A stretch of DNA of 64,000 bases. It comes from an uncultured Mediterraneibacter sp. (lineage in GTDB: Bacteria; Bacillota; Clostridia; Lachnospirales; Lachnospiraceae). The DNA lies in contig CALWTQ010000137.1 in assembly GCA_944384505.1 (NCBI GenBank), forward strand, positions 1 to 64,000. The letters are read 5' to 3'. The position numbers and the translations under genes are program-made. Each line of letters starts with the position of its first letter. Within the stretch, counting starts at the first letter, position 1. Shown here one piece after another: positions 117 through 58,318 of the stretch. Below the pieces are notes generated by a model that was given only the letters and a program-made list of their open reading frames with translations, had not been told where the DNA came from and ran no database searches.

Positions 117-1871
117 TTAGTGCGCTAAATAGCTGTTACAGCGCACTTTGCTTCCATCTGTCCACACTGTAACCGCCCCGCTCTCCTGCGTGGAATACAC
201 GCGGCACCCGGCGTATGCAAGCCTTTCCAGTGTCTCTCTATGGGGATGGCCGTACCGGTTGTCCCGCCCGGCGGAGATGAGCGCGATTGTCGGATGAATG
301 ATTTCAAGGAAGTCTTCGGCTCCTGAATTTTTTGAGCCGTGATGAGCAGCCTTTAACACATCGTACTCCCTCAGCCGTCCGCTTTCTATCAGGGATTTCT
401 CACCCGCGCCCTCCACATCGCCGGTTAAGAGCATGTCGAATTCTCCGAAAGATACATCCAGCACAAGGGAAGCTCCGTTTCCTGGTTCCAGGCCGGCGTC
501 TCTCTCCGGGCCGATACAGGTAAATGTCACTCCCTCCTGCCGGATCACATCCCCTGCTTCCATCACTGCTGCCCGGGTTCCGTTTCTGGCCGCCAGAACT
601 GCCAGTTCTGTCAGTTTTTCATCGTGGTACTCCTGAGGCGGCAGCACAAGGCACCGGATCCGGATTCCCATCTCCTGCCCCACCAGCAGCTCCCGTATTC
701 CGCTGATGTGATCCTCGTCCCCGTGAGTGACAAATGCATAATCGATTATGTCAACGCCGTTTGCCAGAAGATAGGGTTCGATCCGATAGGTTCCCGGCTG
801 TGAGACGTCGCTGCTTCCTCCGTCTATAAAGTAATTTCCCGCCGGACCACGGATATGAATCCCGTCCCCCTGCCCCACATCGAGCAGGACTGCCTGCATC
901 TCCCCGGAAGGCTTGTATCCCATCCGGCAGGAGACTGTCATCCCTGCTGCAAACAGAAGCAGAAGAAGTCCCGGCAGACGCACAGACAATCCCCGTGCAC
1001 AGCCCTGACGGCTTTGAGAACTTTGGCAGTCTTTCACACTGTCCCTGTGCCCTTCCCGGAATTCCGCCAGCGAGGCTTTTCTCTCCAACAGGTATCGGAA
1101 AATGATGCAGATCACACCAATTCCCAGATAATAGACGATCAGCCACATCATTTCCGGCTGTCCTGTCACTATGCGGCTCCCCGGAATCATTCCCGCTCCC
1201 GCGCAGGCCAGATCATAAATCCACAGCACACCCCTGCAGACCTGGAGCACCGCGCCGCCTGCCGGATCCCACACAAACGCCAGAAGCGATCCGGCAAGCC
1301 CCGCTCCCATTGCCGCCGGCATAATGGGGATAACCAGAAGGTTCAATATAACAGAATACGGAGGCACTTCAAAATAGAAATACAGAAGCGGCCCCATAAG
1401 GAAGGCACTGACCGCCATACTTGAGGAAAGCCCCCGAGCTGTCCAGGACGCCACGCTCCACCCATACTGCGCCGGAAGTTTTTTCCGCTGTGCGGCTTTC
1501 TTTTTTGAGGCAAACACGTCACACCCGAAAGTCTCAGAGAATACCGGTCCCAGAAGGGACATTCCCAATATCGCCCCAAAGGAAAGCTGGAACCCGGCAT
1601 CCGTCAAATAGAGCGGTTCTTTCCACACCAGGCCCGCTGCTGAGAGGGCCAGGCTGGTGGGAAGGTCATAGTCCCTCCCTGTCATGTCCGCCCCGATGCG
1701 GACAAGAAACATAATCAGCGCCCTAATACTTGAGACTCCGGCCCCGATCATCAGGGTATAAAGCAGCAGGATGCACCCGCCCAGGATGCCGGAGGGGATA
1801 AATCCAAGCCCGCATTTTCGTAAGATGCTGTAAATCCCCATACCGATAAAGGACATATGCAGTCCCGTCAA
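117..1871 (-). pseudogene. comEC: ComEC/Rec2 DNA-uptake channel, 3' fragment split by prophage
   Basis: This is the C-terminal part of the competence channel that carries single-stranded DNA across the membrane. The first half is a run of hydrophobic helices (Competence domain). The second half is a metallo-beta-lactamase-like domain with DVGQGDG, THGDEDHISG, LLTGDVEG and AAHHGSKNS. The reading frame opens at a TTG next to the phage junction, and residues from LHMSFIG onward continue the ComEC sequence that stops at GHLLAISG near 57635. With the 5' fragment the total would be about 810 residues, normal for the family. As it stands the fragment lacks the N-terminal domain and has no clear ribosome binding site, so it is probably not functional until the phage excises. 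Confidence 0.95.
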
Positions 1872-2009: not shown

Positions 2010-3050
2010 TTAGTCAATTGTGGCTTTTATACGATTAGCCAGCTTTTCAATAATATCATTTTCATCTTCCCACATAATGGTATTCTTCTGGGCAATATCA
2101 AAATGCAACTTTACATCTTTCTGGCAAATCTGAATAACATCTTTTCCCAGGCCCATAGCGTATCCTTCCTCGAAATATGCGCCATTATTCTTGTTAGTAA
2201 GATCCACTACCACAAATCTACTATTTTTTATGTATTTTAATAATTCTGGTGTTATAAAATCATTATGCTGCACTTCGTCAATAAAAATGGCAATATATCC
2301 TGCTTTTTCAACCCCTTTACGAATAGCCTCACGTACAGGTACAGTTTCTTCGCCAAACTGCATCGCCACAAAAGCATTTTTCCCATTTGCAGAATTTTTT
2401 TGTAAAATATCTACGCGATCATAACCTTCTGGAGTTAATGAAAGTTTTAAAAAACCATCTTTATCAAACCATTGAGCTCCCTTTCTTTGTTCAATATATC
2501 CTTTCTGTTCTAAACACGATAACATGTAATGAGATTGAGCACTAATTAATTGCACATTTCTATTTGTACGCTTACCAGTACTATAATCAAATCTGTCCAC
2601 AAAAAGCGCACTATATAATTCTTCCTTTCTCAGTGAAACCGTTTCTCCTACATGTTTAATTCGATCATTTAAAAATAGAACTATTTTATCTATCTTTTCA
2701 GAAAAAGTACCAGGATACCAATTCTCTACAATTTCCTTTGATAAATGGACAGGACGACCATGCGTCCGATCCCCTTCATCATATTTTCTTTTCCACTTAT
2801 CACACCATTCCTTATCGCGATTTGTATAATATCTAGGTTCCAATATATTATCGGGGAATTTATTATACAGCAAATAAGAACCCAAATGATTATAGTCAAA
2901 GTCTACCTCTGGCGCATCCAGTGGAAGTTGTATTTCAAAGCGACCGCAGACTGGACATTCATAAAACACTGTAGCAGTAGCCGGATCTGTCTGCTTTTGA
3001 GCCTCAGAGCCACATAATATACATTTACAATTTTCAGGTACACTAGCCAT
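2010..3050 (-). CDS. Zinc-ribbon protein with C-terminal nucleoside deoxyribosyltransferase/TIR-like domain, probable defence effector
   Basis: The 346-residue product starts with two CxxC pairs (CILCG near residue 11 and CPVCG near 33) that look like a zinc ribbon. A middle region of about 160 residues looks like a winged-helix domain (SAQSHYMLSCLEQKGYIEQ). The C-terminal 115 residues read FVAMQFG, then FIDEVQHNDFITPELLKYI, SRFVVVDLT and GAYFEEGYAMGLGK. That order matches the NDT/TIR-like superfamily, where the Glu of the last motif is catalytic and the activity acts on nucleosides or NAD. Such domains are common in abortive-infection systems. The gene is the last one before the left att site, AT-rich, and stands alone. 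The domain assignment is fairly sure; the defence role is inference. Confidence 0.7.
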   Translation of the reverse strand: MASVPENCKCILCGSEAQKQTDPATATVFYECPVCGRFEIQLPLDAPEVDFDYNHLGSYLLYNKFPDNILEPRYYTNRDKEWCDKWKRKYDEGDRTHGRPVHLSKEIVENWYPGTFSEKIDKIVLFLNDRIKHVGETVSLRKEELYSALFVDRFDYSTGKRTNRNVQLISAQSHYMLSCLEQKGYIEQRKGAQWFDKDGFLKLSLTPEGYDRVDILQKNSANGKNAFVAMQFGEETVPVREAIRKGVEKAGYIAIFIDEVQHNDFITPELLKYIKNSRFVVVDLTNKNNGAYFEEGYAMGLGKDVIQICQKDVKLHFDIAQKNTIMWEDENDIIEKLANRIKATID

Positions 3051-4328: not shown

Positions 4329-4703
4329 ATGGATATCAATTTTAAACTTATTGGAAAACGAATCAAAGAGGTAAGAAAGCAGCGGTCACTCACCCAAGCC
4401 GATCTAGCTGAACTAACTGGAATGTCGGATTCCTATATTAGTTACATTGAAACTGCTAAGAAACAGGCAAGTCTCGAATCACTTGTTCAAATTTCTAATG
4501 CTCTTGGAGTCACTGTAGATGAATTGCTCTGTGGAAATCAACTCTATAGCCCCACTGACTACCAGACCGATATCGATTTGTTGATGGATGATTGCTCTCT
4601 TCTGGAACGCCGTTTCATTTACGAGTTAATTTCTGTGGCCAAATATATTATTCGTAATAATGGCTGGGAATTAATTGAAACAGAGAAAAAACAGGACTCA
4701 TGA
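4329..4703 (+). CDS. XRE-family helix-turn-helix regulator
   Basis: The product is 124 residues. It has a clear HTH at about residues 8-64 (LTQADLAELTGMSDSYISYIE and the following recognition helix) and a C-terminal helical part probably used for dimerisation. AAAGG lies 12 bases before the ATG. It is the first gene to the right of the divergent control region and ends in a strong terminator, so it is transcribed separately from the recombinase operon that follows. It is likely the autoregulated repressor of that operon, though no binding data can be seen. Confidence 0.82.
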   Translation: MDINFKLIGKRIKEVRKQRSLTQADLAELTGMSDSYISYIETAKKQASLESLVQISNALGVTVDELLCGNQLYSPTDYQTDIDLLMDDCSLLERRFIYELISVAKYIIRNNGWELIETEKKQDS

Positions 4704-4709
4704 CTCTTC

Positions 4710-4754
4710 GACCAGAGGTTAACCACTTGACCTCTGGTCTATTTTCTTTTTTTA
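4710..4754 (+). terminator. Rho-independent terminator after XRE gene
   Basis: GACCAGAGGT (4710-4719) and ACCTCTGGTC (4730-4739) form a perfect 10-bp stem, followed by TATTTTCTTTTTTT. It isolates the regulator gene from the downstream recombinase operon, which must have its own promoter. A TATAAT at 4764-4769 is a candidate -10 for it, without a clear -35. Confidence 0.85.
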
Positions 4755-4801
4755 CGATGAAAATATAATAATATGTAACAATACATGAAAGGCGTGAAAA
4801 A

Positions 4802-6682
4802 ATGAATCATTCGGAAGAACACTCCATCAGCATACAGGAGCAAAAAACCAAAATCCGTGAACGATATCGTGGCGTAGATCCAGATACATTGGAATGTCTC
4901 CCTGCAAAGCCACCTGAAAATATTTACGATGAAGACCGTGAATTACGAGTAGCTGTCTATGCCAGGGTATCCACCGATGACCCTAGGCAAACATCTTCTT
5001 ACGAACTGCAGAAAAACCACTATACGGATTTTGTCAACCGACATCCCAACTGGAAACTGGTGGAAATATATGCCGATGAAGGCATCAGTGGTACATCCCT
5101 GAATCATCGTGAATCATTCCTCCGAATGATTGAAGATTGTTATAGGGGAAAAATTGATATGATCATCACCAAAAGTGTTTCCAGATTTGCCAGAAATATC
5201 ATGGACTGTATTGGCTATGTCCGGCAACTCAAAGAATTAAAACCCCCTATAGGAATACGCTTTGAGGCAGAAGGGATTTTTACTCTTGATGCAAACAGTG
5301 AAATGACTCTCTCGTTTATGGCTGCAATGGCACAAGAAGAAAGTCATAACAAAAGTGAAATCATGAACGCCTCCATTGAAATGCGTTTCAAACGTGGCAT
5401 TTTCTTAAAGCCTCCCCTCTTGGGATATGATGTAGATGAGGAGGGCGAACTGATAATCAATGAAGAAGAGGCCAAAACGGTGCGTCTTATTTTTTTCATG
5501 TACCTATATGGATATACCTGTCAGCAGATTGCTGATCAACTAACTGCTTTAAAAAGGCCAACTAAAAAAGGCAACCTAATCTGGAATCCCGGAAGTATTT
5601 TACAGATTCTGCAAAATGAAAGACATTGCGGCGATATTCTTGCCCGAAAGACCTGGACTCCTAACTACCTAAACCATAAATCCAAAAAGAATAAGCAAGA
5701 TCGAAACCAATATCGTAAATATGGAGACCACGAAGCAATTATCTCCAAAGATGACTTTGTCGCTGTACAGCATCTTATTTTGAATGCAAAATATGGTGCG
5801 AAAGGATTACTCCCAGAACTCCACGTAATTTCAGATGGTGTCCTCAAGGGCTTTGTAACAGTCAATCCTCGCTGGGCCGGTTTTAAGGCTCCCGACTACA
5901 ATGCGGCATGCAGAAGTATTTATGACTACGATGACTCTATTGAGTCTGTCTTAGCGCTAGATGTTTCTCCCGGAGATTTTGATTTGAGAGGATTTGAAAT
6001 CACAAGAGCGCAATTTTTAAATCCTCGTGATAAGCCTTACATATTGATTACGCACAAAATGTTAAAATTTAACTTAATTGCGCTCCAAAAATTTCATGAT
6101 ATTGATTATATAGAACTGCTAATACATACAGTTGAAGGTCTGTTAGCTATCCGTCCCAGCACAAAGGAAAAACGCAACAGTATGAAATGGTCTAAACTCT
6201 CTGAGGTAAAGAAAGTACCTAAAGGAATCGGAAGTGCAGCTTTTATTCCCACTTTATACGAACTATGTGGTTGGAATCATAAGTATACATACCGTTGCCT
6301 CGGCCAGTTCCATCAAAAGGGAGACGAAATGGTATTGGTTTTCAACTTAAAAGAACCGGAAGTTTTTATTCCCACTTCCGAAGATAAAAACACAAATGAT
6401 ACCCACCCCAAATCCGATTACTTTGGAGCCTCTTCTAAAAGTTTACTTGCCTACCCAGCAGATTGGCGGCATACTTTTGGCAATAATTTTTATCATCAAT
6501 CCCAAGCTGCGGAAATGGCCGCGTTTTCACAAAGCCAAGAATGGCATACACAGAATGAGGGAGTACCCTACCATACAGATAATCTTAACGTCACTACTCC
6601 CGATAAAGCTCGTGAAGAGATTCAACAAATCATTCAAAATATGAAACAGGAGGAACCGCATGAACGAGTTACTGATCGTTGA
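4802..6682 (+). CDS. Serine recombinase with non-standard C-terminal module in place of zinc ribbon
   Basis: The product is 626 residues. The resolvase-type catalytic domain runs from about residue 48 to 200, with catalytic Ser57 in YARVSTD and the SVSRFARN motif near 125-132. A Recombinase domain follows to about 330. Usual large serine recombinases then have a CxxC zinc ribbon and coiled coil, but here residues 340-560 contain neither. Instead there is a module with DYIELLIHTVEGLLAIRP (435-452), GWNHKYTYRCLG, FNLKEPEVF and YPADWRHTFG. The same module recurs in the next two genes. The gene opens a coupled operon and overlaps the next gene by 23 bases. It could be the comEC integrase or serve a different locus. 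Confidence 0.88.
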   Translation: MNHSEEHSISIQEQKTKIRERYRGVDPDTLECLPAKPPENIYDEDRELRVAVYARVSTDDPRQTSSYELQKNHYTDFVNRHPNWKLVEIYADEGISGTSLNHRESFLRMIEDCYRGKIDMIITKSVSRFARNIMDCIGYVRQLKELKPPIGIRFEAEGIFTLDANSEMTLSFMAAMAQEESHNKSEIMNASIEMRFKRGIFLKPPLLGYDVDEEGELIINEEEAKTVRLIFFMYLYGYTCQQIADQLTALKRPTKKGNLIWNPGSILQILQNERHCGDILARKTWTPNYLNHKSKKNKQDRNQYRKYGDHEAIISKDDFVAVQHLILNAKYGAKGLLPELHVISDGVLKGFVTVNPRWAGFKAPDYNAACRSIYDYDDSIESVLALDVSPGDFDLRGFEITRAQFLNPRDKPYILITHKMLKFNLIALQKFHDIDYIELLIHTVEGLLAIRPSTKEKRNSMKWSKLSEVKKVPKGIGSAAFIPTLYELCGWNHKYTYRCLGQFHQKGDEMVLVFNLKEPEVFIPTSEDKNTNDTHPKSDYFGASSKSLLAYPADWRHTFGNNFYHQSQAAEMAAFSQSQEWHTQNEGVPYHTDNLNVTTPDKAREEIQQIIQNMKQEEPHERVTDR

Positions 6683-7340
6683 TAAGAAGCTTACCCCGAA
6701 GGAAAAACCTTCTATAAATAGAGAAATGGAAATTATACAGGATGACTCTTTTAATTATGATGGTTACCAAGTCGTCCGGGGAGAATTTTTCTCACATCTT
6801 CACGAACCCTGTATTACATTCAACAATTTCAAAGTCTATATGAATACAGCATGTATCAAAAAACTTCCCGAAACCGATTATGTTCAGATTCTTGTCAATC
6901 AGGAGCAAAAAAAACTGGCGGTTCGCCCTTGCTCCGAAGATTCTAAGGATTCATTCCGCTGGTGCAGTGCCACTGCAAAACGTACACCAAAACACGTTAC
7001 ATGCCGTGTATTCTATGGGAAAATTACAGAGTTGATGGGATGGAATCCTAATTACCGATATAAGCTGGTCGGAAAGCTGATTCAATCCAATGGGCAACTT
7101 CTATTCATTTTTGATTTAACAGCGCCAGAAATATTCACTAAGATGTCCCAAAATGGAGAAAAATCTCAGGCGTCCCGGACGCCTGTATATCCTGCCGAAT
7201 GGGAACATCAATTTGGCGTTCCTGTAGAAGAACATCAAAAATCCCTCCAGATCGACATATTTGATGGATATGCTCTATTTGGCATGAATGATAAAAGCGC
7301 AAAAAATAATATCGAAAGAGAGGATATGCAACATGAGTAA
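6660..7340 (+). CDS. Stand-alone paralogue of the recombinase C-terminal module
   Basis: The product is 226 residues and has no catalytic domain. Residues 30-190 align by eye along the whole C-terminal module of the preceding recombinase: DYVQILVNQEQKKLAVRP (73-90) against DYIELLIHTVEGLLAIRP, GWNPNYRYKLVGKL against GWNHKYTYRCLGQF, FDLTAPEIF against FNLKEPEVF, and YPAEWEHQFG against YPADWRHTFG. A good AGGAGG precedes the ATG inside the end of the recombinase gene, so translation is coupled. I do not recognise a named family. An accessory subunit that assembles with the recombinase is the simplest reading, and that is inference. Confidence 0.8.
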   Translation: MNELLIVDKKLTPKEKPSINREMEIIQDDSFNYDGYQVVRGEFFSHLHEPCITFNNFKVYMNTACIKKLPETDYVQILVNQEQKKLAVRPCSEDSKDSFRWCSATAKRTPKHVTCRVFYGKITELMGWNPNYRYKLVGKLIQSNGQLLFIFDLTAPEIFTKMSQNGEKSQASRTPVYPAEWEHQFGVPVEEHQKSLQIDIFDGYALFGMNDKSAKNNIEREDMQHE

Positions 7341-7725
7341 CTGTACCAATTCATTACCGATTATTTGCATTGACTTTAAAAAAAGTCGTTTTCGCATTCA
7401 TAAGAACACACTCCGAATGCTTGGTAATCCAGATTATATCCAACTATTAGTCAACCCTTACAAAAATATGCTGGCCATTAGATGTTCTATCCGGGAGGAT
7501 CGCTTATCGCATGAAGTGCGTCTAGAACGTTATCCTTCCAAGAATAGTTACGAACTGTATAGCAACAGCCTCGCTGCTAACCTTTTACATAGCAATCAAC
7601 ATCTGCATTTTGGCAATTCATATCGTTTTTATGGAACATTGAATTCATCTCACAAAATCGCACTGTTTTGCTTAGATGATGCAGTTTCCATTTCATCAAA
7701 TGACTATGGAGAGGTGGCTATATGA
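7333..7725 (+). CDS. Shorter, divergent paralogue of the same module
   Basis: The product is 130 residues, starting at ATG 7333 after GAGAGG and overlapping the previous gene by 8 bases. PDYIQLLVNPYKNMLAIR (33-50) and NSYRFYGTL (95-103) match the first core and the W-YRY-G core of the two upstream proteins. It lacks the tryptophan of the second core and the YPADW tail, so it is a reduced version. Three module copies in a row within one coupled operon suggest duplication with specialisation. No catalytic motif is visible. Confidence 0.75.
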   Translation: MSNCTNSLPIICIDFKKSRFRIHKNTLRMLGNPDYIQLLVNPYKNMLAIRCSIREDRLSHEVRLERYPSKNSYELYSNSLAANLLHSNQHLHFGNSYRFYGTLNSSHKIALFCLDDAVSISSNDYGEVAI

Positions 7726-8666
7726 AAGTAGATTATTATCCCGTTTTGAAAATTGACCCAGAATTTAAAAGCCTTATGCACCCTCTATCTGAAAAAGAAT
7801 TTCTTTCTCTCCGGGAGAGTCTCTTAGAGGGTAAAGCAGCATATTCCATTGCAGCATGGAATGATTATCTGATAGATGGCTATGAGCGGTACATGATATG
7901 CCGCCAAGAAAATCTTCCCTATCACGTCCATCACATCGGATTTAGCTGCCGTGAACATGCGATCACTTGGATATGCCGTGAACAATTAAAAAAAGAAAAT
8001 CTTCCAAATGAGCGCTTTCGGTACCTCATCGGAAAACGATATGAAACAGAACGTATCGTACGCAAAGGCCCCTCAGGTGATACAGCATCCCAAACCAACC
8101 ATAACAAGCTGCAAAACACAAACAGTTACCAGACTGCACTTAAATTAGGAAAAGAATATTCCCTTTCCCATAACACGGTTTATAAATATGGCATATACTC
8201 TCGCATGGTAGATATCGTTATGGAAAAAGATGCCGATTTGGCACAAAAAATCTTATCGGGCAAACTACGCATTTCGCATGACAACATCATAGAATTATCC
8301 CGATTACCGCAGGAGAACATCCGAAGGCTAAACAAATCCCTTTCCAAAGACGGGATTGAACATATTGTCATTTCCGATATTCTCCGGGGATTCCAATGGA
8401 AACGGGTTGTAGAGCCTCGCACAAAAACAATCCCACAAGAGGAAATCCCGATAAAACAAATGCCTCAATTCGATCCAAACGCCGCACCTTCCAGCTTGGC
8501 ATATACTATGCCCTCTTGGGAAGGTACTATAAAGAGAATCCAGAGTGAAACGGATTTCCAAATTGTCAGCGAAGACGTAAAAAACAAATTAGCATTCCAG
8601 ATCCGGCAATTGCAGAATACACTTGCCACACTATCAGAGAAAATGGAGGATACCAGAAATGAATGA
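7722..8666 (+). CDS. ParB-like nuclease-fold protein with helix-turn-helix
   Basis: The product is 314 residues. The N-terminal 90 residues resemble a phage-type ParB/Srx domain (PLSEKEFLSLRESLLEG, then the IDGYERYMICRQENLPYH position equivalent to the GxxR motif). A central HTH-like segment (TALKLGKEYSLSHNTVYKYG, about 138-157) and a C-terminal helical tail follow. It overlaps the previous gene by 4 bases (ATGA). No ParA ATPase is next to it, so classic plasmid partition is unlikely. A DNA-binding partner of the recombinase module is possible. Confidence 0.7.
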   Translation: MKVDYYPVLKIDPEFKSLMHPLSEKEFLSLRESLLEGKAAYSIAAWNDYLIDGYERYMICRQENLPYHVHHIGFSCREHAITWICREQLKKENLPNERFRYLIGKRYETERIVRKGPSGDTASQTNHNKLQNTNSYQTALKLGKEYSLSHNTVYKYGIYSRMVDIVMEKDADLAQKILSGKLRISHDNIIELSRLPQENIRRLNKSLSKDGIEHIVISDILRGFQWKRVVEPRTKTIPQEEIPIKQMPQFDPNAAPSSLAYTMPSWEGTIKRIQSETDFQIVSEDVKNKLAFQIRQLQNTLATLSEKMEDTRNE

Positions 8667-9549
8667 CCTTTCAAAATATGTGCCGAACGTATTTTTCGAG
8701 CAAATTCCTATTAATAACCTTGTTTCCAGCCAGGAATATCAGCGCAATCTTTCCATCAAACACGTTCAAAAAGCGGCTGCAAATTTCGATCTCTATCAGA
8801 TCAATCCCGTAAAAGTCAGCCGCAGAAATAACATCAATTATGTTTTTAACGGGCAGCATACGATTGAGATTGTCGCTTTGGTTTCCGGTTCCCGTGAAAC
8901 GCCTGTATGGTGCATGGTTTATGATGATTTGGAGTATCAGCACGAAGCGGACATTTTTGCAAACCAGATGAAGTATGTAAAGCCCCTGCTTCCCTATGAA
9001 ATCTTCATGGCAAGCATTGAGGCTGGGAGTGATAAACATATCCTGATAAAAGATTTAGTGGAGTCATTCGGCCTGGAAATCGGATCGAACTCTTCTCCCG
9101 GATGTATCTGTGCGATTTCCACTTTGGTAGAACTTTATGATAAATATGGTTATGACCTGCTCCAGCACACCCTTGCATTATGCATTGGCACATGGGAAGG
9201 GAGCCAGCATTCCTTCAGTTCCAATATGCTCAAGGCCGTTGCCCGCCTTCTCTACGTTTACGGGGATTCCTTAAAAGATGACGTGTTCAAGGATAAAGTA
9301 GGACGTATCTCCGTAAAAGAGGTTATCCGTTCCGCAAAAGACCGTAGGGCGGGATCGCTCGGTTATGCGGAGGCACTCCTGCTCTTCTACAATAAAAAAA
9401 TGAAATTTCCATTGAAATTGGAATATTTATACAGTAGAAAGCCTCCCCAGAATGTTTCCCTGACCTCGGAAATACCTACAGAAGACTATGAAAACGATGA
9501 GGGTGAAGAAAATCCCGAATCCAGTCAGTTAGAATTGTTTCAATCATAA
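8659..9549 (+). CDS. ParB-like / DUF6551-type protein
   Basis: The product is 296 residues, starting at ATG 8659 after GGAGG inside the end of the preceding gene. The N-terminal part has VSRRNNINYVFNGQHTIEIV, the ParB-like NGQHR-type motif seen in DUF6551-like phage proteins. The remainder is helical, with an acidic tail. Two different ParB-like proteins in one operon is unusual. This is the last gene of the five-gene unit and is followed by a hairpin shared with the convergent recombinase pair. The DUF name is from memory and needs checking. Confidence 0.68.
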   Translation: MNDLSKYVPNVFFEQIPINNLVSSQEYQRNLSIKHVQKAAANFDLYQINPVKVSRRNNINYVFNGQHTIEIVALVSGSRETPVWCMVYDDLEYQHEADIFANQMKYVKPLLPYEIFMASIEAGSDKHILIKDLVESFGLEIGSNSSPGCICAISTLVELYDKYGYDLLQHTLALCIGTWEGSQHSFSSNMLKAVARLLYVYGDSLKDDVFKDKVGRISVKEVIRSAKDRRAGSLGYAEALLLFYNKKMKFPLKLEYLYSRKPPQNVSLTSEIPTEDYENDEGEENPESSQLELFQS

Positions 9550-9554
9550 AGGTT

Positions 9555-9589
9555 AGTGGCACCCTGTACGTTTTAAGCAGGGTGCCACT
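9555..9589. terminator. Bidirectional hairpin between convergent operons
   Basis: AGTGGCACCCTG (9555-9566) and CAGGGTGCCACT (9578-9589) form a perfect 12-bp stem. It sits exactly between the stop of the ParB-like gene and the stop of the minus-strand recombinase, so it probably ends both transcripts. T runs are weak on both sides. Confidence 0.75.
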
Positions 9590-10978
9590 CTATACACTCA
9601 CCGTCTCCTGACTGCCATCCATGAACGTAAATTCATATTTTTTCGCTCCTTTTATGATAACCATCTGGATCACCAACTGTGCTAATTCCGGCACATAACA
9701 CTCTAATTTCGGTTGCTCCGATAATTCCATGAATTGTTTCGCCCGTAATTTTTCCAATGCATTGCCAGTTTCTATGGTTTTCTTCCAACGTGGAAGCAAT
9801 TCTTCTTTCCGGCTCATGAGCATATTATAGGCTCTCATAAATCCCAATTCCAGATTGCTCTGACTTACAAACCTATTAATGCAGGTCACCTTCCCATTTG
9901 TCATGTGATTTTTGCACTGCCATTGCATAATTCCTCTGCTCTTCCATGTATGTCGGGTATAGGAGGAACCGCATTCACCGCAGAAAATTCTTGAAGTAAA
10001 TGGATTGCATTCTCGACCGTACCCGTACCCTTTCAACCCATGTTCTTTTACAAATTCCTCTCGGCGGGCAAATTCCAGCTGGACAGCATTCCATATTTCT
10101 TTATCGATAATACCTATATGGCTGCCTTTCACATAAACTTGCGTAACCTCTCCATGATTTTTCACCTGCTTTTTGGTAAGGAAATCGGCGGTATAGGATT
10201 TCTGCAGCAAAGCATCTCCCATATGCTTTTCATTTTTTAAGATGTTGATTACTGTAGAAGGATACCATTTTTTCGCTCCCATACACCCTTCAATTTTCTC
10301 ATCTTCCAGCCCTTTTGCAATCTCCTGTGGGCTATGGCCCCAGAGAAATTCTCGGTAAATTCTCCGTACAATTTTAGCTTCTCGCTCATTAATAACCAGC
10401 TTGCCATCCACCTTATCGTATCCCAGAAACTTATGCGTATTTAAGTGCATCTCACCTTTTTTGAATTTGGATCGTATGCCCCATTTACAGTTCTCGGAAA
10501 TGTTCCTCGACTCGTCCTGCGCCAAAGAACTTAATATCGTAAACAACAACTCTCCGGAAGAATCCAGTGTATTGATATGCTCCTTCTCAAACAATATCCC
10601 AATCCCTAAGTTTTTCAACATTCTTGAATATTGTAAACAATCCTGCGTATTTCTTGCGAATCGGCTGATAGATTTTGTAATCACCATATCAATCTTCCCA
10701 GACTCACAATCGGAAATCATCCGTCTAAACTGCTCTCTTTTCTTTGTGTTTGTACCTGTGATTCCTTCATCAGCGTATATGCCTGCCATTTCATAATTAG
10801 GATGGTCACTGATATAACGGGTGTAATAATCCACCTGCGCATCAAAACTATGAAGCTGATCTTCCTGATCCGTGGATACTCTGCAGTATGCAGCCACTTT
10901 AAGTTTCTTCTCAGTCCTGCTCTTCCCTTGCAGCTCGTTCCGGCTTTTTGCAGGAATAACTGTAATGTTTCGTGCCAT
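9590..10978 (-). CDS. Large serine recombinase (downstream member of tandem pair)
   Basis: The product is 462 residues. Catalytic Ser35 lies in YCRVSTD, SISRFARN follows near residues 103-110, a Recombinase domain runs from about 185 to 300, and a zinc ribbon has Cys333, Cys336, Cys355 and Cys366. A short C-terminal region, IQMVIIKGAKKYEFTFMDG, ends the protein. AAAGGAAGGG precedes the ATG. It overlaps the upstream recombinase gene by 68 bases, so both are made from one message and probably act together. It lies at the end of the late module next to lysis genes, the usual location of a phage integrase, which makes this pair strong candidates for comEC integration and excision. Confidence 0.92.
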   Translation of the reverse strand: MARNITVIPAKSRNELQGKSRTEKKLKVAAYCRVSTDQEDQLHSFDAQVDYYTRYISDHPNYEMAGIYADEGITGTNTKKREQFRRMISDCESGKIDMVITKSISRFARNTQDCLQYSRMLKNLGIGILFEKEHINTLDSSGELLFTILSSLAQDESRNISENCKWGIRSKFKKGEMHLNTHKFLGYDKVDGKLVINEREAKIVRRIYREFLWGHSPQEIAKGLEDEKIEGCMGAKKWYPSTVINILKNEKHMGDALLQKSYTADFLTKKQVKNHGEVTQVYVKGSHIGIIDKEIWNAVQLEFARREEFVKEHGLKGYGYGRECNPFTSRIFCGECGSSYTRHTWKSRGIMQWQCKNHMTNGKVTCINRFVSQSNLELGFMRAYNMLMSRKEELLPRWKKTIETGNALEKLRAKQFMELSEQPKLECYVPELAQLVIQMVIIKGAKKYEFTFMDGSQETVSV

Positions 10979-12425
10979 TTCTACCCTTCCTTTCTTTGAT
11001 GTAAATCGCTTTCCGTATCGGCATGAAAGCCTTCACCACTCGATCAGGAATCCTGACCCCTTCACAATAAGCTGCTCCTTTCCGCTTTCTGCCATTACAC
11101 TCCCATACAATATCCCCATGCTTTTTTATATGCCGCACCAGTCTGCTTCCGCACTCGGCACAAAAAATGCTACGGTAATAAGGATAATTTTCTTCCGTAA
11201 GCTTCGGGACATCCCGGACAAACTCTTTCTTCTTATGCCGCCGACTCCATGAAGACTCTTTTATATAGGAAAATTCTTTTATGGATTTGCGGCTATCCTT
11301 TACACTGATGTAAATATTTCCATCAAATTGCCATTGCCGTACCTCCGTATCAGGAACATGGATACCGTCACAAAAGTCTTTTCCGTGGCGTGTTCTTCCC
11401 GAACAATCCCAACTCATGCGGTTCCCGTTACTGTAAATGCGATGCGTAAGAAGACTTCCGCATTTCGCACAGAAAAGATGTCCTTTATATGGATAATTTT
11501 CTTCCGTCACTTCCCGGATCTGGCAATCCATATCCAAATAATCTCGCTTCTTTTTTCTGGCCGCCTGAGCCTTATCCCAAAGTTGCCTCGACACGATAGG
11601 CGGATGATCGTCTTCAATATACCAGGCATCCACCTCTCCTCGGTTCTTTACCAATTTGCGTTCCTCATTCACATAATTTTTGTGCATGATATAGTCGCCT
11701 TTATAAATCTCATTCTCCAAAATCCGTTTTACTGTGCTTTCCACCCAGCCAGCGCCCTTGTCCGTTTTTATGCCTGCAGCGTTCATTTCAGCCGCTATTG
11801 TGGAAAGCGAATACCCTTCTGCAGCCATCTCGTAGATTTTTACGATCCACTTGGCTTGCTCCACATCCGGAACAAACTCGCCTTTTTCATTTTTGGTATA
11901 TCCAAAACACCGCTCCAGATACTGAACAGGAATCCCCTGTTCATATTTTCGCTGATATACCATCTTCGCCCCAATACTGCCGCTCTCGCTCTCTGCCTGT
12001 GCGAATGCCGCCAGAATAGTAAGCATCAGTTCTCCCTGCGAAGACAATGTATTGATATTCTGCAGTTCAAAAAAAATACCGACATTGAGTTCCTTCAGCT
12101 CTCTGGAAGCCTTCAGGACGATGGCGGTATTTCTTGCAAACCGTGATACGGATTTTGTGTATATCAGATCAATCTTTCCGTTTCTGGCATCCATAAGCAT
12201 TTTCTGAAGGCCAGGACGCTTTTCTTTATAACCAGAAATGGCGAAATCATAATAGACACCTGCATATTCGTACTCTGGATTCGATTGGATCAGATTTTCA
12301 TAGTATGCGATCTGGTTTTCCAATGAGTTCTCCTGCTCCAACGCATCTGTAGAAACACGGCAATATGCACATACTTTTTTCCGATAGTCTTTCAATATTC
12401 TGGCTTCCAATACTTGAATTTCCAT
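10911..12425 (-). CDS. Large serine recombinase with duplicated zinc ribbon (upstream member of pair)
   Basis: The product is 504 residues from ATG 12425, with GGAAAGGAG before it. An in-frame extension upstream covers the promoter and is rejected. Catalytic Ser25 lies in YCRVSTD and SVSRFARN is at 92-99. It carries two zinc ribbons in series: Cys319/322/341/352 and Cys422/425/443/454, each introduced by the same EENYPY sequence. Most family members have one, so this looks like an internal duplication that could widen DNA contact. The C-terminus is basic (KKPERAAREEQD) and overlaps the start of its partner. Confidence 0.92.
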   Translation of the reverse strand: MEIQVLEARILKDYRKKVCAYCRVSTDALEQENSLENQIAYYENLIQSNPEYEYAGVYYDFAISGYKEKRPGLQKMLMDARNGKIDLIYTKSVSRFARNTAIVLKASRELKELNVGIFFELQNINTLSSQGELMLTILAAFAQAESESGSIGAKMVYQRKYEQGIPVQYLERCFGYTKNEKGEFVPDVEQAKWIVKIYEMAAEGYSLSTIAAEMNAAGIKTDKGAGWVESTVKRILENEIYKGDYIMHKNYVNEERKLVKNRGEVDAWYIEDDHPPIVSRQLWDKAQAARKKKRDYLDMDCQIREVTEENYPYKGHLFCAKCGSLLTHRIYSNGNRMSWDCSGRTRHGKDFCDGIHVPDTEVRQWQFDGNIYISVKDSRKSIKEFSYIKESSWSRRHKKKEFVRDVPKLTEENYPYYRSIFCAECGSRLVRHIKKHGDIVWECNGRKRKGAAYCEGVRIPDRVVKAFMPIRKAIYIKERKGRNGTKHYSYSCKKPERAAREEQD

Positions 12426-12453
12426 AGGCTTCTCCTTTCCTTTTGGTAGTCTA

Positions 12454-12482
12454 TCTATCACTCTAAACGCCAAGAATAGCAA
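12454..12482 (-). promoter_or_regulatory. Candidate promoter of the recombinase pair, shared leader type
   Basis: On the minus strand TTGCTA (12482-12477), a 17-base spacer and GATAGA (12459-12454) precede ACTACCAAAAGG and the start codon. The layout CTTGCTATT ... AGAG.GA ... ACTACC is shared with leaders at about 31926-31954 and 33350-33378. Here the CGAATATGTG box is replaced by a divergent sequence, so the recombinases may be controlled differently from the other two. Confidence 0.5.
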
Positions 12483-12529
12483 GTAGAATAATCGTACCGT
12501 CCACCTTTCAGTTATTGGCATTACCACAC

Positions 12530-52226: not shown

Positions 52227-52643
52227 ATGATAATAATCGCTGCCGTTGACGATAGAAACGGCATGATGTTCAACCATCGCCGCCAGAGTCAGGACAAGGT
52301 ACTACGTGAAAAAATCCTGTCGCTGACCGCTGGCAAGCTGCTGTGGATGGATCACTACTCTGCCAAACAGTTTGATGGTTGTACCGTTCCACAACTGAAT
52401 ATAGATGATCGCTTTATGTGGGAGGCCGCTCCCGGCGAGTATTGTTTCGTGGAGGATATATCTGTCGCACATTTTGAAAAGTGGGCCGAACAGATCATTC
52501 TCTTTAAATGGAACCGGAAGTATCCCGGTGATTTCTATTTCGATATTGATGTGCAAAAACCGGAATGGAAATTGAGCCATACAGAGGACTTCGCCGGATC
52601 TTCCCATGAAAAAATTACAATGGAGGTATATGACCATGCGTAA
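52227..52643 (+). CDS. Conserved hypothetical protein of lysogeny module
   Basis: The product is 138 residues from ATG 52227 after GAAAGAAGG. MIIIAAVDDRNGMMFNHRRQSQDKVLREKIL, CTVPQLNIDD and FVEDISVAHFEKWAEQIILFKWNRKYPGD suggest a compact alpha/beta protein. Similar proteins travel with the ImmA and nuclease genes in Lachnospiraceae elements and are sometimes labelled ribonuclease Z without clear support. It overlaps the nuclease gene start by 8 bases. Confidence 0.65.
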   Translation: MIIIAAVDDRNGMMFNHRRQSQDKVLREKILSLTAGKLLWMDHYSAKQFDGCTVPQLNIDDRFMWEAAPGEYCFVEDISVAHFEKWAEQIILFKWNRKYPGDFYFDIDVQKPEWKLSHTEDFAGSSHEKITMEVYDHA

Positions 52644-53622
52644 ACTGCAAAAGACATTCCTGCCTCTTTTACTGGCAGTTCTTCTTTGTTTTACCGGATG
52701 CAGTGGAACAACTGCAGATGCTGACAATACTCCAAGTACTTCATCGCAGACAACAACTACCTCAACTGAGGAGCCTACTCCGCAAGAAGATACACAGCCT
52801 GCTCCTGAAACCACCACGGCCATAGATCTAGGCAGTATCCCGGCATTTTCAGGAGAACCGTATGTCGCTATCAACAATAACGTCCCATATTTTACGGACG
52901 CTGATCTCACAACTTCTTCTTTCGAAGAATACAGTAGTTTGGATTCACTTGGACGCTGCGGTGTTGCATATGCCTGCATCGGGACAGATCTAATGCCAAC
53001 CGAGGATCGTGGCTCCATCGGACAAGTAAAACCGTCCGGTTGGCACACTGTAAAATATGATTGTGTGGATGGGAAGTATTTATATAACCGCTGCCATCTG
53101 ATCGGCTATCAGCTTACAGCGGAAAATGCCAATGCAAACAACCTGATCACAGGTACTCGATATTTGAATGTAGAGGGGATGCTTCCGTTTGAAAATATGG
53201 TTGCCGACTACATAAAAGAAACCGGGAACCATGTCCTATATCGTGTCACTCCAATTTTTGAAGGAAATAATCTGGTGGCTAGCGGCATTCACATGGAGGC
53301 CAAATCTGTAGAGGATAATGGGGAAGGCATTCTCTTTAATGTTTATTGCTACAATGCGCAGCCCGGTGTTGGAATTGATTATGCTACCGGTGAAAGCTGG
53401 CTGGATACTGGCTCTGGAACCGAAACGCCGAGTAGCTCTCCATCCAGTTCTGTAGAAAGCGGAGAAGTCACCTATATTTTGAATACCAATTCCCATAAGT
53501 TCCACGATCCTTCCTGCTCCAGTGTAGATCAAATGAGCGACAGCAATAAAGAGGAATTCACTGGAACAAAGGATGAAGTCATTGCAATGGGCTATGAACC
53601 GTGTGGACGTTGTAATCCATAA
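52636..53622 (+). CDS. Lipoprotein DNA/RNA non-specific endonuclease, DNA-entry (EndA) type
   Basis: The product is 328 residues from ATG 52636 (GGAGG 9 bases upstream). It has a lipoprotein signal MRKLQKTFLPLLLAVLLCFTGC, a Ser/Thr-rich linker to about residue 60, then the nuclease domain. YNRCHLIGYQLTAENANANN carries the catalytic His, and NLITGTRYLNVEGMLPFEN and HVLYRVTPIFEGNNLVASGI are typical of the EndA/NucA group. A C-terminal domain ends with YILNTNSHKFHDPSC and EPCGRCNP (metal-binding-like). It would act at the cell surface on extracellular DNA. Confidence 0.9.
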   Translation: MRKLQKTFLPLLLAVLLCFTGCSGTTADADNTPSTSSQTTTTSTEEPTPQEDTQPAPETTTAIDLGSIPAFSGEPYVAINNNVPYFTDADLTTSSFEEYSSLDSLGRCGVAYACIGTDLMPTEDRGSIGQVKPSGWHTVKYDCVDGKYLYNRCHLIGYQLTAENANANNLITGTRYLNVEGMLPFENMVADYIKETGNHVLYRVTPIFEGNNLVASGIHMEAKSVEDNGEGILFNVYCYNAQPGVGIDYATGESWLDTGSGTETPSSSPSSSVESGEVTYILNTNSHKFHDPSCSSVDQMSDSNKEEFTGTKDEVIAMGYEPCGRCNP

Positions 53623-54125
53623 GAAGTCATTATAAATATTATAAAGAATTATGTGAATGTCACAGTAGAATTCTGCAAGAATAGAATCATGTTGCTATGA
53701 TAAGTCACATGGAAAGATGGTACAAATATGATATTGACTATGTAACTGATATTCAGTAAGCGACAGCAACCAAAACCAACGGTCTAGGTGAAGGATATAT
53801 GGTATGATGTATCAATCAACAGAATTATAGGTATAACATTGGGTACTGATTGTAGAATAGGAAGTGGCAATGTAGTGCTAAAAAGTAGATTGGACAAAAA
53901 ATGCGGAATAGATACAAATCGGGCTTGCATAATGAACCGCATAAAAAATATTCCCATCTGAGTAAAGAAGCACACCTGCACATCAATAAGCAAAAGTGAC
54001 GCATCTAATACTGATACCAGGATATCTATGTAATCCGGTCTCTTGTAACACGAAAATTTGGAGGTAAGAATCACTTTCATTACTATTTGTGTCATCAACT
54101 GCATGGTGACGGAATGGAGATTAGT
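53623..54125. other. 503-base gap without a convincing gene
   Basis: This AT-rich stretch lies between the nuclease and the restriction-modification cassette. Only short frames occur, such as 32 codons from ATG 53901. It has no good hairpin and no clear promoter other than AT-rich patches. It may be the scar of an insertion that brought in the cassette. Nothing specific can be called. Confidence 0.5.
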
Positions 54126-54557
54126 ATGGCAGACGTATTTACTGAACAGGAGCGTTCAAATATTATGAAAAAAGTGCATTCCAGCGGAAACAAATCAACA
54201 GAATTGAAATTAATTAAATTGATGCGTGAAAATGGAATCACAGGCTGGCGTAGGAACTACAAGGTTAAGGGACATCCAGATTTTGTATTTCTTTCTAAAA
54301 AAATCGCCATTTTCGTCGATGGTTGCTTCTGGCATGGACATGACTGTCGCAACACGAAGCCATCATCTCATTCAGATTACTGGCAAAAAAAACGTGAACG
54401 GAATATACGTCATGACAAAGAAGTTACTGCTCTATTTGAAAACCGAGGTTGGATTGTAGTTCGAATATGGGAATGTGAACTTAAAAAAAAGAACCAGATG
54501 ATAGCACTCACCCGAATAACAAATGCGCTTGCAGAAAGGGATCACCCTCATAGGTGA
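54126..54557 (+). CDS. vsr: Very short patch repair endonuclease (Vsr)
   Basis: The product is 143 residues from ATG 54126 after GGAG. MADVFTEQERSNIMKKVHSSGNKSTELKL, the catalytic region GHPDFVFLSKKIAIFVDGCFWHGHDC and WQKKRERNIRHDKEV match Vsr. The enzyme nicks next to T:G mismatches made by deamination of 5-methylcytosine. Its presence next to a 5mC methylase fits a complete cassette. It converges on the restriction gene. Confidence 0.95.
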   Translation: MADVFTEQERSNIMKKVHSSGNKSTELKLIKLMRENGITGWRRNYKVKGHPDFVFLSKKIAIFVDGCFWHGHDCRNTKPSSHSDYWQKKRERNIRHDKEVTALFENRGWIVVRIWECELKKKNQMIALTRITNALAERDHPHR

Positions 54558-54566
54558 TCCCTTAAA

Positions 54567-55625
54567 TCAATTATGATTTCTTACTGTGAAATACAATGTC
54601 TGATCAAATCTGCGTTCTGGGCTCAAAAGCTCTATATATCCATCTTCTATGATAGAATTAACAGCCTCTTTCGGTAAAATCGGTCTCGCCGTTCGATGAG
54701 AAGTAACATAAGTTTTCCATCTATTACCCGGCACAGAAAACTCCTTGTCTGTTTGGTTTCCAAAAGCCATCTGGCGATAAATATCAACTACCCTTATTTT
54801 CCCAGACTTACTAAGTTCCCACAAACATCTGGCTAATCTTGCCGATGCACGCATAGGTCTGCTCATGGTAGAGGTAACCTCATAGGAACTGTCAATAAAC
54901 AAACGAGAAAATGCATAATCACTCCAAATTACTATATCGAATGCCTGATCAGCCAAAAGTGGTGATTTTCCTTGTGTTTTCCACAACGTTTGCATGAGTA
55001 GAGGTTTTTGTCGAGTGTAATAACTTTTTTGAAATTCATCAATACTTTTACAGAGCGATGGTATTTTATGAGTCATTTCAAAATCGTTATCCCAACTTTG
55101 TATGGAAGAACAAGCCTCCTCGAATATCTCTCTTACTTTATGTGCCTCCTGCCAAACTGCATCATACATACCAAGAGCGCAATAGGAAGTCGTTGCCGAA
55201 CGCACTACCATTTCGGACCCCCAGTTTTCTTCCGTTTTCTTATATGTAGTATTATCTGGCAAGACAGTTAATTTAACCTCTAGAGGTGCTAAATACTGCC
55301 CTTGTAAATCTCTAATTACCAAATCGATACCATCAATAGCATCAAAAGAATATTTCTGATATGGCTCAAACACACTTTCAAAGGCAAAATACAATTGATT
55401 TGCATGTAAATTACCACAATTAAAAACTTCTCTAATTGAAATTTCTTTAGAAACAACAGTTGGTTTGTCATCCAAAATATCGAGGCTTATGTAAATTGCC
55501 GGTATATTATTCTCTAACATATAACTCGCCATTGCGGCAGGAAAGCTGGAATTAAAGCAATTCTTCCCCCAATGATCATTCTGCGATCGATTAGAGTGTT
55601 CTATTCCGAATAAACCACTTGGCAT
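54567..55625 (-). CDS. HindVP-like type II restriction endonuclease
   Basis: The product is 352 residues from ATG 55625 (AGGAGG upstream; in-frame codons before it are poorer). MPSGLFGIEHSNRSQNDHWGKNCFNSSFP and the catalytic-looking IDGIDLVIRDLQGQYLAPLEVKLTVLPDNTTY (D...ExK) match the HindVP/HgiDI family, whose known members cut GRCGYC. It is divergent from the methylase and convergent with vsr. The exact site recognised here is not deducible. Confidence 0.88.
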   Translation of the reverse strand: MPSGLFGIEHSNRSQNDHWGKNCFNSSFPAAMASYMLENNIPAIYISLDILDDKPTVVSKEISIREVFNCGNLHANQLYFAFESVFEPYQKYSFDAIDGIDLVIRDLQGQYLAPLEVKLTVLPDNTTYKKTEENWGSEMVVRSATTSYCALGMYDAVWQEAHKVREIFEEACSSIQSWDNDFEMTHKIPSLCKSIDEFQKSYYTRQKPLLMQTLWKTQGKSPLLADQAFDIVIWSDYAFSRLFIDSSYEVTSTMSRPMRASARLARCLWELSKSGKIRVVDIYRQMAFGNQTDKEFSVPGNRWKTYVTSHRTARPILPKEAVNSIIEDGYIELLSPERRFDQTLYFTVRNHN

Positions 55626-55766
55626 AAAAATACCTCCTATGGCCATCAAATGACGTCAATTACTTGACGTCATAATCAAAATATATTATAATAAAGTCAT
55701 ATCGTTAATTCTGTCTATTTGTATAATTATAGCACACTTTTCTTAATTTGAATAGGGGGATTTGTT

Positions 55767-57119: not shown

Positions 57120-57401
57120 TCACATTTGAATAGTTTTACAAAACATATAATGTTCGATTTTTGAACGTAGATAAGAATAAAAATTCCAAAAATTTGCTGT
57201 TACTGGAAAGTCCTTTCTATATACAAACTTTGTTCTATATTTTATTTTTTGCATAGCACACCACTTATATATATCTCTCATTCTAAAACTGTCACCCGCT
57301 TCTATACGTTTTGATAAATATGAAAACTTCACCACATCTAATTCCGATTGTAAGTGTAAATAAAACCATACATTATAATAACGAATTGTAACTATCCCCA
57401 T
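57120..57401 (-). CDS. Possible small basic protein beside the right att site
   Basis: The 93-codon frame (MGIVTIRYYNVWFYLHLQSELDVVKF) has GAAGGGAG 9 bases before the ATG. The product is rich in Lys, Arg, Tyr and Phe. No family is recognised. It is the only gene candidate between the methylase and the right phage end, where recombination accessory genes often lie, so it could be a directionality factor, but evidence is thin. GTCCTT/AAGGAC repeats lie upstream near 57495-57508 and 57549. Confidence 0.4.
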   Translation of the reverse strand: MGIVTIRYYNVWFYLHLQSELDVVKFSYLSKRIEAGDSFRMRDIYKWCAMQKIKYRTKFVYRKDFPVTANFWNFYSYLRSKIEHYMFCKTIQM

Positions 57402-57607: not shown

Positions 57608-58318
57608 TTATGCCAAGAATAAAGTTTGAACACCTGAGATGGCCAGCAGGTGCCCGATCCCATTCTTCTGATAGAGCTTCTTCATCTCTGCGTCCAGTCC
57701 GCCTTTCTCCCCTAACAGGACTGCGCTCATTGTGCCTCCGTAGTAGTCTCCCAGGTGACGGATGAGCAGCTGATCCCAGGACGAGCGGAGATCAGACAAA
57801 ACCTGGTGCACCTGCCATACCTCGTCTGAGATCACTTCCAGGCTCTCCGGCCAGATGAGGATGCGGATCCCCTGTCTCGCATAGTATACTTTCTGATCGA
57901 AATTTCCCGGGTTGCGGGCGGATTCAAAGCACTGTCCTTCGCCGGACATACGGATCCGGTTCCCGATTTTTAATCCCTGTTTCAACCGCCGTGATTGTTG
58001 TTCCGGCTGTTGTGATTGTTGTTCCAATTGTTGTTTCAGTTGTTGCAGCTGTTCCTGCCTGACATAGGCCATGATCTGAGGTTCTTCATACACCTCATGC
58101 CCATAGACTGTTACGGCAGCATCCTTTACGAATACCGCCGTTACCTTTGCTTTCTCTTCGATTCTGTACACAGTGCCGGTTAAGGTAAGCTCCGCCGCCT
58201 TTTCCGCGGCGTTTTCCAGGGGGGAAGGCTCTGCTCCTTCCGACCCAAAAAAGCTGACCTTCACGGCCTGCGCGATAAGAAACAGTACGCATATCGCACA
58301 AAGAGGTCGTTTTCCCAT
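57608..58318 (-). pseudogene. comEC: ComEC/Rec2, 5' fragment truncated by prophage
   Basis: The product is 236 residues, of which 229 are native ComEC: an N-terminal hydrophobic helix (CAICVLFLIAQAV), the DUF4131/OB-like extracytoplasmic domain (TLTGTVYRIEEKAKVTAVFVKDAAVTVYG) and the start of the Competence domain (LIRHLGDYYGGTMSAVLLGEKGGLD, NGIGHLLAISG). A stretch near residues 95-120 is rich in Gln (QLKQQLEQQSQQPEQQ) and could be slippage-prone. The protein lacks the channel helices and metallo-beta-lactamase domain, so uptake should be abolished in the lysogen. Confidence 0.95.
57615..57650. other. Right phage/host junction (att site within comEC)
   Basis: Read on the minus strand, comEC sequence ending GCCATCTCA meets GG (57634-57633) and then the phage sequence TGTTCAAACTTTATTC. 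Joining the comEC side here to that at 1864 gives CATCTCAGG-ACTGCATAT, in frame and encoding the conserved LAISGLHMS of ComEC. The junction adds seven foreign residues (VQTLFLA) and a stop to the 5' fragment. Confidence 0.85.

Follow-up and report, generated by a model that had tools for sequence, protein, structure and literature searches.

The well-studied serine integrases of the phiC31, A118 and SPbeta type consist of one kind of polypeptide and are switched by a small directionality factor, and in ordinary integrases the zinc-ribbon/coiled-coil domain serves outer-site recognition and directionality. Here we analyse a five-gene operon around a serine recombinase (SR) on contig C137 (CALWTQ010000137.1) of an uncultured Mediterraneibacter sp., using the first 64,000 of the contig's 68,328 bases (the window). 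SR is followed by two stand-alone copies of its C-terminal module (M2 and M3) and by a fourth and a fifth gene (PB4 and PB5), and the operon faces two neighbouring integrases (int1 and int2). The best reading of these sequences, in our view, is that the operon would be a serine-recombinase module of several subunits, which either assists the integrase pair or takes its place. One of the two closest described arrangements is that of streptococcal integrative and conjugative elements, where, according to the available part of that study, serine integrases occur as triplets of adjacent genes that cluster by position, with small direct repeats and integration into coding genes; all integrases of a triplet have one orientation to the target gene, and the zinc ribbon is absent from 10 of the 42 integrases (PMC4701971). 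In the Anabaena fdxN element, going by the available part of the report, XisF needs XisH and XisI for excision, and perhaps for its direction (PMC4874684). Both the triplets and XisF-XisH-XisI may be counted as precedents for a multi-subunit reading.

The initial annotation, made from the letters of the window alone, had described a recombinase with a novel C-terminal module, two stand-alone copies of that module and two ParB-like proteins, and had suggested a recombinase of several subunits. All five plus-strand open reading frames (ORFs), spanning 4802-9549, were found where it had placed them:

4802..6682, plus strand: SR, serine recombinase, with a resolvase domain at residues 50-199, a recombinase domain at 221-326 and the module at about 393-591.
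6660..7340, plus strand: M2, stand-alone module copy of 226 aa, recognised by profile-profile comparison.
7333..7725 (longest ORF from 7288), plus strand: M3, stand-alone module core, 130 aa from 7333.
7722..8666, plus strand: PB4, some relatives of which match ParB-like PHROGs.
8659..9549 (longest ORF from 8623), plus strand: PB5, ParB-like, DUF6551.

The coupling of the five genes by overlaps of 23, 8, 4 and 8 nt holds given M3 and PB5 starts at 7333 and 8659, each of which is preceded by an AGGA/GGAGG-like sequence; with the longest-ORF starts the overlaps become 23, 53, 4 and 44 nt instead. Near relatives are annotated as hypothetical proteins in GenBank, a point that the initial annotation missed.

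Related loci were gathered by several searches, with regions partly hand-picked, into a set holding 118 distinct M2 proteins, mostly from viral contigs and many cut by contig or locus ends. The first viral-contig scan contributed the best 80 of 106 relatives, and the relatives in the second viral scan number at least as many as are listed. An M2 match was found in 24 of 392 genomes sampled from the order, the source genome included and some matches being weak. Among phages, 20 records have an M2 match, and 16 of these belong to the deposited PV0364xx series, where M2 is annotated as hypothetical.

The similarity of the module across three proteins was examined by profile-profile comparison: M2 matches the C-terminus of SR with a probability of 100% (E 6e-40, 187 columns), M3 matches M2 at 98.4% (E 4e-15), and M3 matches the SR C-terminus at 97.6% (E 3e-12). 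All controls stayed below 0.5%; these were comparisons with profiles reversed, M2 compared with PB4, with PB5 and with the catalytic part, and M3 compared with column-shuffled M2 (nine shuffles). On these profiles, the homology of the module among SR, M2 and M3 is far beyond chance, and the initial claim of a common module stands; the motifs YPA(D/E)W and GWN, which it had also assigned to all three, are present in SR and M2 but absent from M3, which is the approximately 120-residue core of the module only. The profile search proposed at that time placed the module in no Pfam family (best E 0.0011, with at most 3 of 81 M2 members and 1 of 59 M3 members matching any one family), and the M2 profile had no match among PDB sequences at E<=1. 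The predicted structure of the module is confident, with 10-residue means of the predicted local distance difference test (pLDDT) of 81-94 over SR residues 401-520, and would consist of two similar strand-helix-strand-strand parts. This order of strands and helices may resemble that of AbrB, and the AbrB/MazE family was unmatched in Pfam by the 59 M3 members.

The active-site residues of SR are intact, and its usual C-terminal domain is missing. The window SR matches Pfam Resolvase and Recombinase, and Zn_ribbon_recom is matched by int1 and int2, not by SR. Likewise, Resolvase and Recombinase (PF07508) were matched in 63 of 63 SR relatives, and the zinc-ribbon family (PF13408) was absent among the 14 Pfam families returned for these proteins. 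Two CxxC motifs after residue 300 occur in none of 106 SR proteins, and a single motif in 1; in contrast, at least one CxxC motif is present in 131 of 136 other large serine recombinases (LSRs). The Pfam families and motif counts thereby bear out the early statement that SR has no zinc ribbon. Its companion, that SR has no coiled coil, agrees with the AlphaFold model (63 sequences, mean pLDDT 82.7, predicted template-modelling score 0.67), in which no long helical hairpin was seen after the recombinase domain. Of 130 SR sequences, a sample that includes partial copies cut by locus ends, 108 keep every one of the active-site residues R55, S57, D92, R128 and R131; in the remaining 22, some of the five positions fall in gaps, and none is occupied by a different residue. 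Among the best 50 of 1061 Foldseek matches to the predicted SR structure, the 19 at E<=0.001 are all serine recombinases, with 3g13, 9dxh and 9dxd among the solved relatives, and for this model the matches reflect the catalytic part. The SR of L162/L317 is broken into three pieces (99, 511 and 136 residues), for which a frameshift or sequencing error may be responsible, and the splitting of the G352 SR over L087/L088 is an artefact of a region boundary at 20,000.

The operon genes are kept together across genera and viral contigs. SR lies directly upstream of M2 in 92 of the 100 loci with room among those of the 118 distinct M2 proteins; of the other 8, one has a swapped order, one has another M2-like gene directly upstream, and six have SR either farther upstream, by up to 0.85 kb, or with an overlap exceeding 120 nt. 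M3 follows M2 in 108/112 loci with room. Where enough downstream sequence was available (90 loci), 74 have both PB4 and PB5, 1 has only PB4, and 15 have neither gene. Junctions that overlap or are at most 10 nt apart number, in gene order, 95/107, 98/109, 77/84 and 75/76, counts for which longest ORFs were used, which favours overlap. The survey suggested by the initial annotation, of whether the five genes stay together, has a divided outcome: SR-M2-M3 nearly always do, but PB4 and PB5 can be missing, and because 15 loci lack both, these two are not core subunits everywhere, which weakens that annotation's reading. The regular separation of genes that it had named as counter-evidence was seen for PB4/PB5 only.

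Several relatives distribute the same parts differently. In a split form (L062, L063), the recombinase has about 413 residues and lacks the module; two separate modules follow it, and after these come PB4 and PB5. In phages PV036427 and PV036429 there is a form with only two genes, one for an approximately 400-residue recombinase core and one for a separate module protein (145 and 142 residues, matching the M3 profile at E 4e-18 and 2.6e-17), and this form faces an int1/int2-type pair. In the recombinase tree, SR forms one fully supported clade of 50, and all six split cores that were placed fall within the SR clade (support 0.995), four of them grouping outside the fused forms and two (L062, L063) among the fused forms. 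Furthermore, 18 of the 87 loci with enough sequence upstream have an additional gene (190-260 residues) ahead of SR; it encodes a resolvase-domain paralog, giving a six-gene form (for example in L055, L058 and L191, where it is directly upstream). The catalytic column of this paralog holds a serine in 0 of 22 distinct proteins (17 have a gap and 5 another residue), which could be consistent with a heteromeric complex. Split and six-gene relatives fit a recombinase whose parts may be made as separate polypeptides, and as far as such comparisons go, the earlier multi-subunit idea is strengthened.

Of the two proteins that the initial annotation called ParB-like, PB5 is the firm case, matching DUF6551 at 8.9e-31 and the ParB-like phrog_1033 at 2.1e-13. 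PB4 is weaker and depends on some relatives only: the window PB4 matched no ParB family in the Pfam and PHROG scans, and among 64 relatives 13 match phrog_2159 and 9 match phrog_4715, both labelled 'ParB-like partition protein', while the commoner matches are to an unnamed family (49) and to a 'DNA methyltransferase' family (25). A Pfam ParB family was not found for PB4 and its relatives.

The operon lies within a Heliusvirales-like prophage of about 55.8 kb in comEC, between attL and the convergent int1/int2, a context that the initial annotation had missed. We would like to note that the gene names comEC, cpaF, tad, relaxase and restriction come from reading the sequence, not from profiles. 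The features of this context are as follows:

117..1871, minus strand: C-terminal part of comEC, cut by the prophage; attL junction with a shared GG(G) at about 1864-1866, hand-counted from the ORF start.
4329..4703, plus strand: Cro/CI-type helix-turn-helix (HTH) protein just upstream of the operon (context).
4710..4739, plus strand: hairpin followed by a T-rich run, a terminator-like end of the HTH unit; similar hairpins lie upstream of SR in the relatives shown.
4764..4769, plus strand: TATAAT, -10-like, likely the operon's own promoter, kept in the relatives shown (by eye, without a promoter scan).
9555..9589, no strand: terminator-like signal, a perfect inverted repeat of 12 nt that separates the two convergent units.
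9590..10978, minus strand: int1, ordinary large serine integrase with zinc ribbon.
10911..12527, minus strand: int2, ordinary large serine integrase with zinc ribbon, overlapping int1.
57120..57401, minus strand: small ORF adjoining attR; the comEC prophage of G372 has a relative at its own attR end, and further relatives lie at island junctions with cpaF (G345, G348).
57608..58318, minus strand: N-terminal part of comEC; attR junction with a GG at about 57633-57634, hand-counted from the ORF end.

The attP site is partly symmetric. Four other loci (L009, L010, L043, L049) have the C-terminal part of comEC with a similar junction and the same gene set alongside, and among these the N-terminal part was seen for G372 only (L361). 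The interior genes of the prophage resemble those of Blautia phage NatCom_24097 (GenBank; placed in Ca. Heliusvirales), and all six PV0364xx records that were opened are placed in Ca. Heliusvirales. This phage group is reported to be widespread in the human gut, and the main text of that report does not contain the words 'recombinase', 'integrase' or 'ParB' (PMC9226167).

The small ORF adjoining attR was found in 9 of the 392 genomes (two matches being weak), 5 of the 9 having no M2 match; as only a lead, it might be an element-end gene or a directionality factor. Its relatives also stand beside tad-like genes in G360 and G372:C3. Near attR, 54087-56909 holds a Vsr-like nuclease, a restriction-enzyme-like gene and a cytosine methyltransferase, and 52606-53622 (plus strand), near the prophage end, a secreted-looking protein resembling a non-specific nuclease, all named by reading. 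Between attL and the operon, the product of 2010-3050 (minus strand) has a weak deoxyribosyltransferase/TIR-like end with a PADLOC match to a TIR effector at 1.8e-9, and is possibly defence cargo; this protein is covered by the match in L010, not by that in L009.

An int1 at 60% identity or more is present in 14 of the 16 PV0364xx records with M2. More generally, 50 distinct loci, the window included, have SR together with exactly two further serine recombinases of at least 350 aa, loci with any other number having been left out of this set. The partners are convergent and downstream in 31, in tandem upstream in 13, divergent in 4 and in tandem downstream in 2. Mantel correlations are 0.405 and 0.452 between SR and the partners and 0.927 between the partners, with 0 of 999 permutations as high.

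Putting these observations together, we tentatively propose, at somewhat less than an even chance, that SR-M2-M3, with PB4 and PB5 in this clade, is a multi-subunit site-specific serine recombinase and one part of the integration module in prophages of the Heliusvirales type and in certain further elements of Clostridia. SR would cut and exchange DNA via its resolvase domain, with the new module standing in for the zinc-ribbon/coiled-coil domain; modules in cis and in trans would provide site recognition or direction. M2 and M3 would act as further module copies in trans, either at additional half-site positions or paired with SR module-to-module, and PB4 and PB5, bound to DNA close to the site, would have an auxiliary role that is architectural or regulatory. 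All of these together may act with the neighbouring int1/int2, or switch their direction, at the comEC attachment site. The sequences themselves show the gene content and order, the homology, the intact residues of the active site, the linkage of the genes and the att junctions; the complex itself, the roles of M2, M3, PB4 and PB5, and action on the same att site are what we infer here.

A number of observations weigh against this proposal. The correlations of SR with its partners are much weaker than those of the partners with each other, and shared ancestry alone could give them; moreover, the partner labels were set by score and are not cleanly separated in the tree. Of the 32 distinct M2 loci flanked on each side by 6.5 kb or more, 13 have no ordinary LSR within 9 kb, and none is seen in 44 of the 118 M2 loci overall, many of the 44 being cut short. 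Because there are such loci, an int1/int2-type pair is not obligatory, and on the 13 well-flanked loci we dropped the idea of an obligatory partnership. Conversely, pairs of the int1/int2 type occur in Streptococcus phages, a group not represented among the 20 phage records with an M2 match, so a pair of this kind can do without the operon. Both int1 and int2 are present in all five comEC-junction loci observed, and the comEC reaction may therefore be theirs alone. Finally, several operons lie outside phages, on islands where genes resembling restriction or mobilization genes (named by reading) are close by. In G345 and G348, islands with the operon have similar ends and split cpaF at one and the same position; the island pieces lie on separate contigs and are not established as a single element. 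At the junctions of these two islands 3-9 bp are shared, between CATATAA/TTATATG arms (by eye), and in G345 the other half of cpaF is adjoined by three tyrosine recombinases, which we take to be Tn554-like, so the cpaF islands may be moved by a different enzyme. On the same two grounds, the operon as their sole integrase was set aside. The cpaF gene is interrupted at nearly the same place in three genomes, L089 (G352), L081/L160 (G345) and L366/L370 (G348), the G352 insertion being a different element with another serine recombinase. In G345:C1 no overlap of ends was found.

The main rival, which we consider unlikely, is that the operon works independently as a recombination system on sites of its own, for a second integration/excision or an inversion, and that the comEC att site is recombined by int1/int2 alone. 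The Streptococcus phages with pairs and the islands with the operon and no LSR pair nearby both speak for it, as do the operon's own promoter-like and terminator-like signals and its direction against int1/int2. Nevertheless, it leaves unexplained the juxtaposition with two further LSRs in four orientations, and no second site or invertible segment was identified, direct repeats of at least 12 nt being absent from the three short regions near the operon and attL that were searched. An improbable alternative is that the operon is an accessory or selfish cargo cassette that favours element ends and has no role in movement. It does lie near variable genes at element ends, and it is found on phages as well as on islands that have mobilization-like or restriction-like genes, as named by reading. 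Against this, the two-gene form already stands beside an LSR pair, operon and pair occur together in the opened Heliusvirales records (with 3-5 kb of other genes between them in two), and the ends of a separate cassette were not found when relatives were aligned in the genera of G291 (six) and G017 (one), which gave right-side homology only, bar one 45-bp match. Also improbable is that the recombinase has been co-opted to maintain or regulate the prophage, by a partition-like action or by repression, and that the ParB-like proteins are the active part. In its favour, PB5 belongs to the ParB-like DUF6551 and the operon comes after a repressor-like gene. Against it, no ParA ATPase was found among ten proteins scanned, 15 of 90 loci lack both PB4 and PB5, and every SR sequence that is complete at the active site retains the residues there.

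Returning to the proposal of a multi-subunit recombinase, we found no description of the module, its stand-alone copies, the ParB-like partners or the dead paralog among the listed titles and abstract openings from the open-access PubMed Central literature, which is a weak test of novelty. It is possible, if doubtful, that the operon represents a new heteromeric class of serine recombinase, in which the recognition/directionality domain was duplicated and released as subunits, one branch adding a dead resolvase subunit, and which would be a second engine or a direction switch beside a paired integrase. If true, a replaced and copied C-terminal domain, with or without a dead paralog, would be a different route to site choice and direction; it would offer a testable subject for the control of integrase direction and possibly new genome-writing tools, and the split, fused and six-gene relatives would provide an evolutionary series for testing the multi-subunit reading.

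Compared with the described systems, the locus shares features with each. Like the streptococcal triplets, it has three serine recombinases side by side, in the window and in 49 further distinct loci; unlike their single orientation, the arrangement in the window is convergent, and of the 50 loci 31 are convergent, 4 divergent and 15 codirectional. Stand-alone modules, ParB-like genes and a dead subunit occur here and go unmentioned for the triplets in the available part of that study (PMC4701971). As with XisF-XisH-XisI, a serine recombinase is accompanied by further element-encoded proteins; unlike M2 and M3, XisH and XisI are not described as recombinase-domain copies in the available part of the report (PMC4874684). 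An Xis-type family was absent among the Pfam hits of 81 M2 and 59 M3 members, a comparison made via families, not with the XisH/XisI sequences themselves. Like SPbeta YokA (which has a recombination directionality factor) and the phiC31, A118 and TP901-1 integrases, SR has resolvase and recombinase domains, and unlike all of these, the zinc-ribbon/coiled-coil domain is replaced in SR by the new module.

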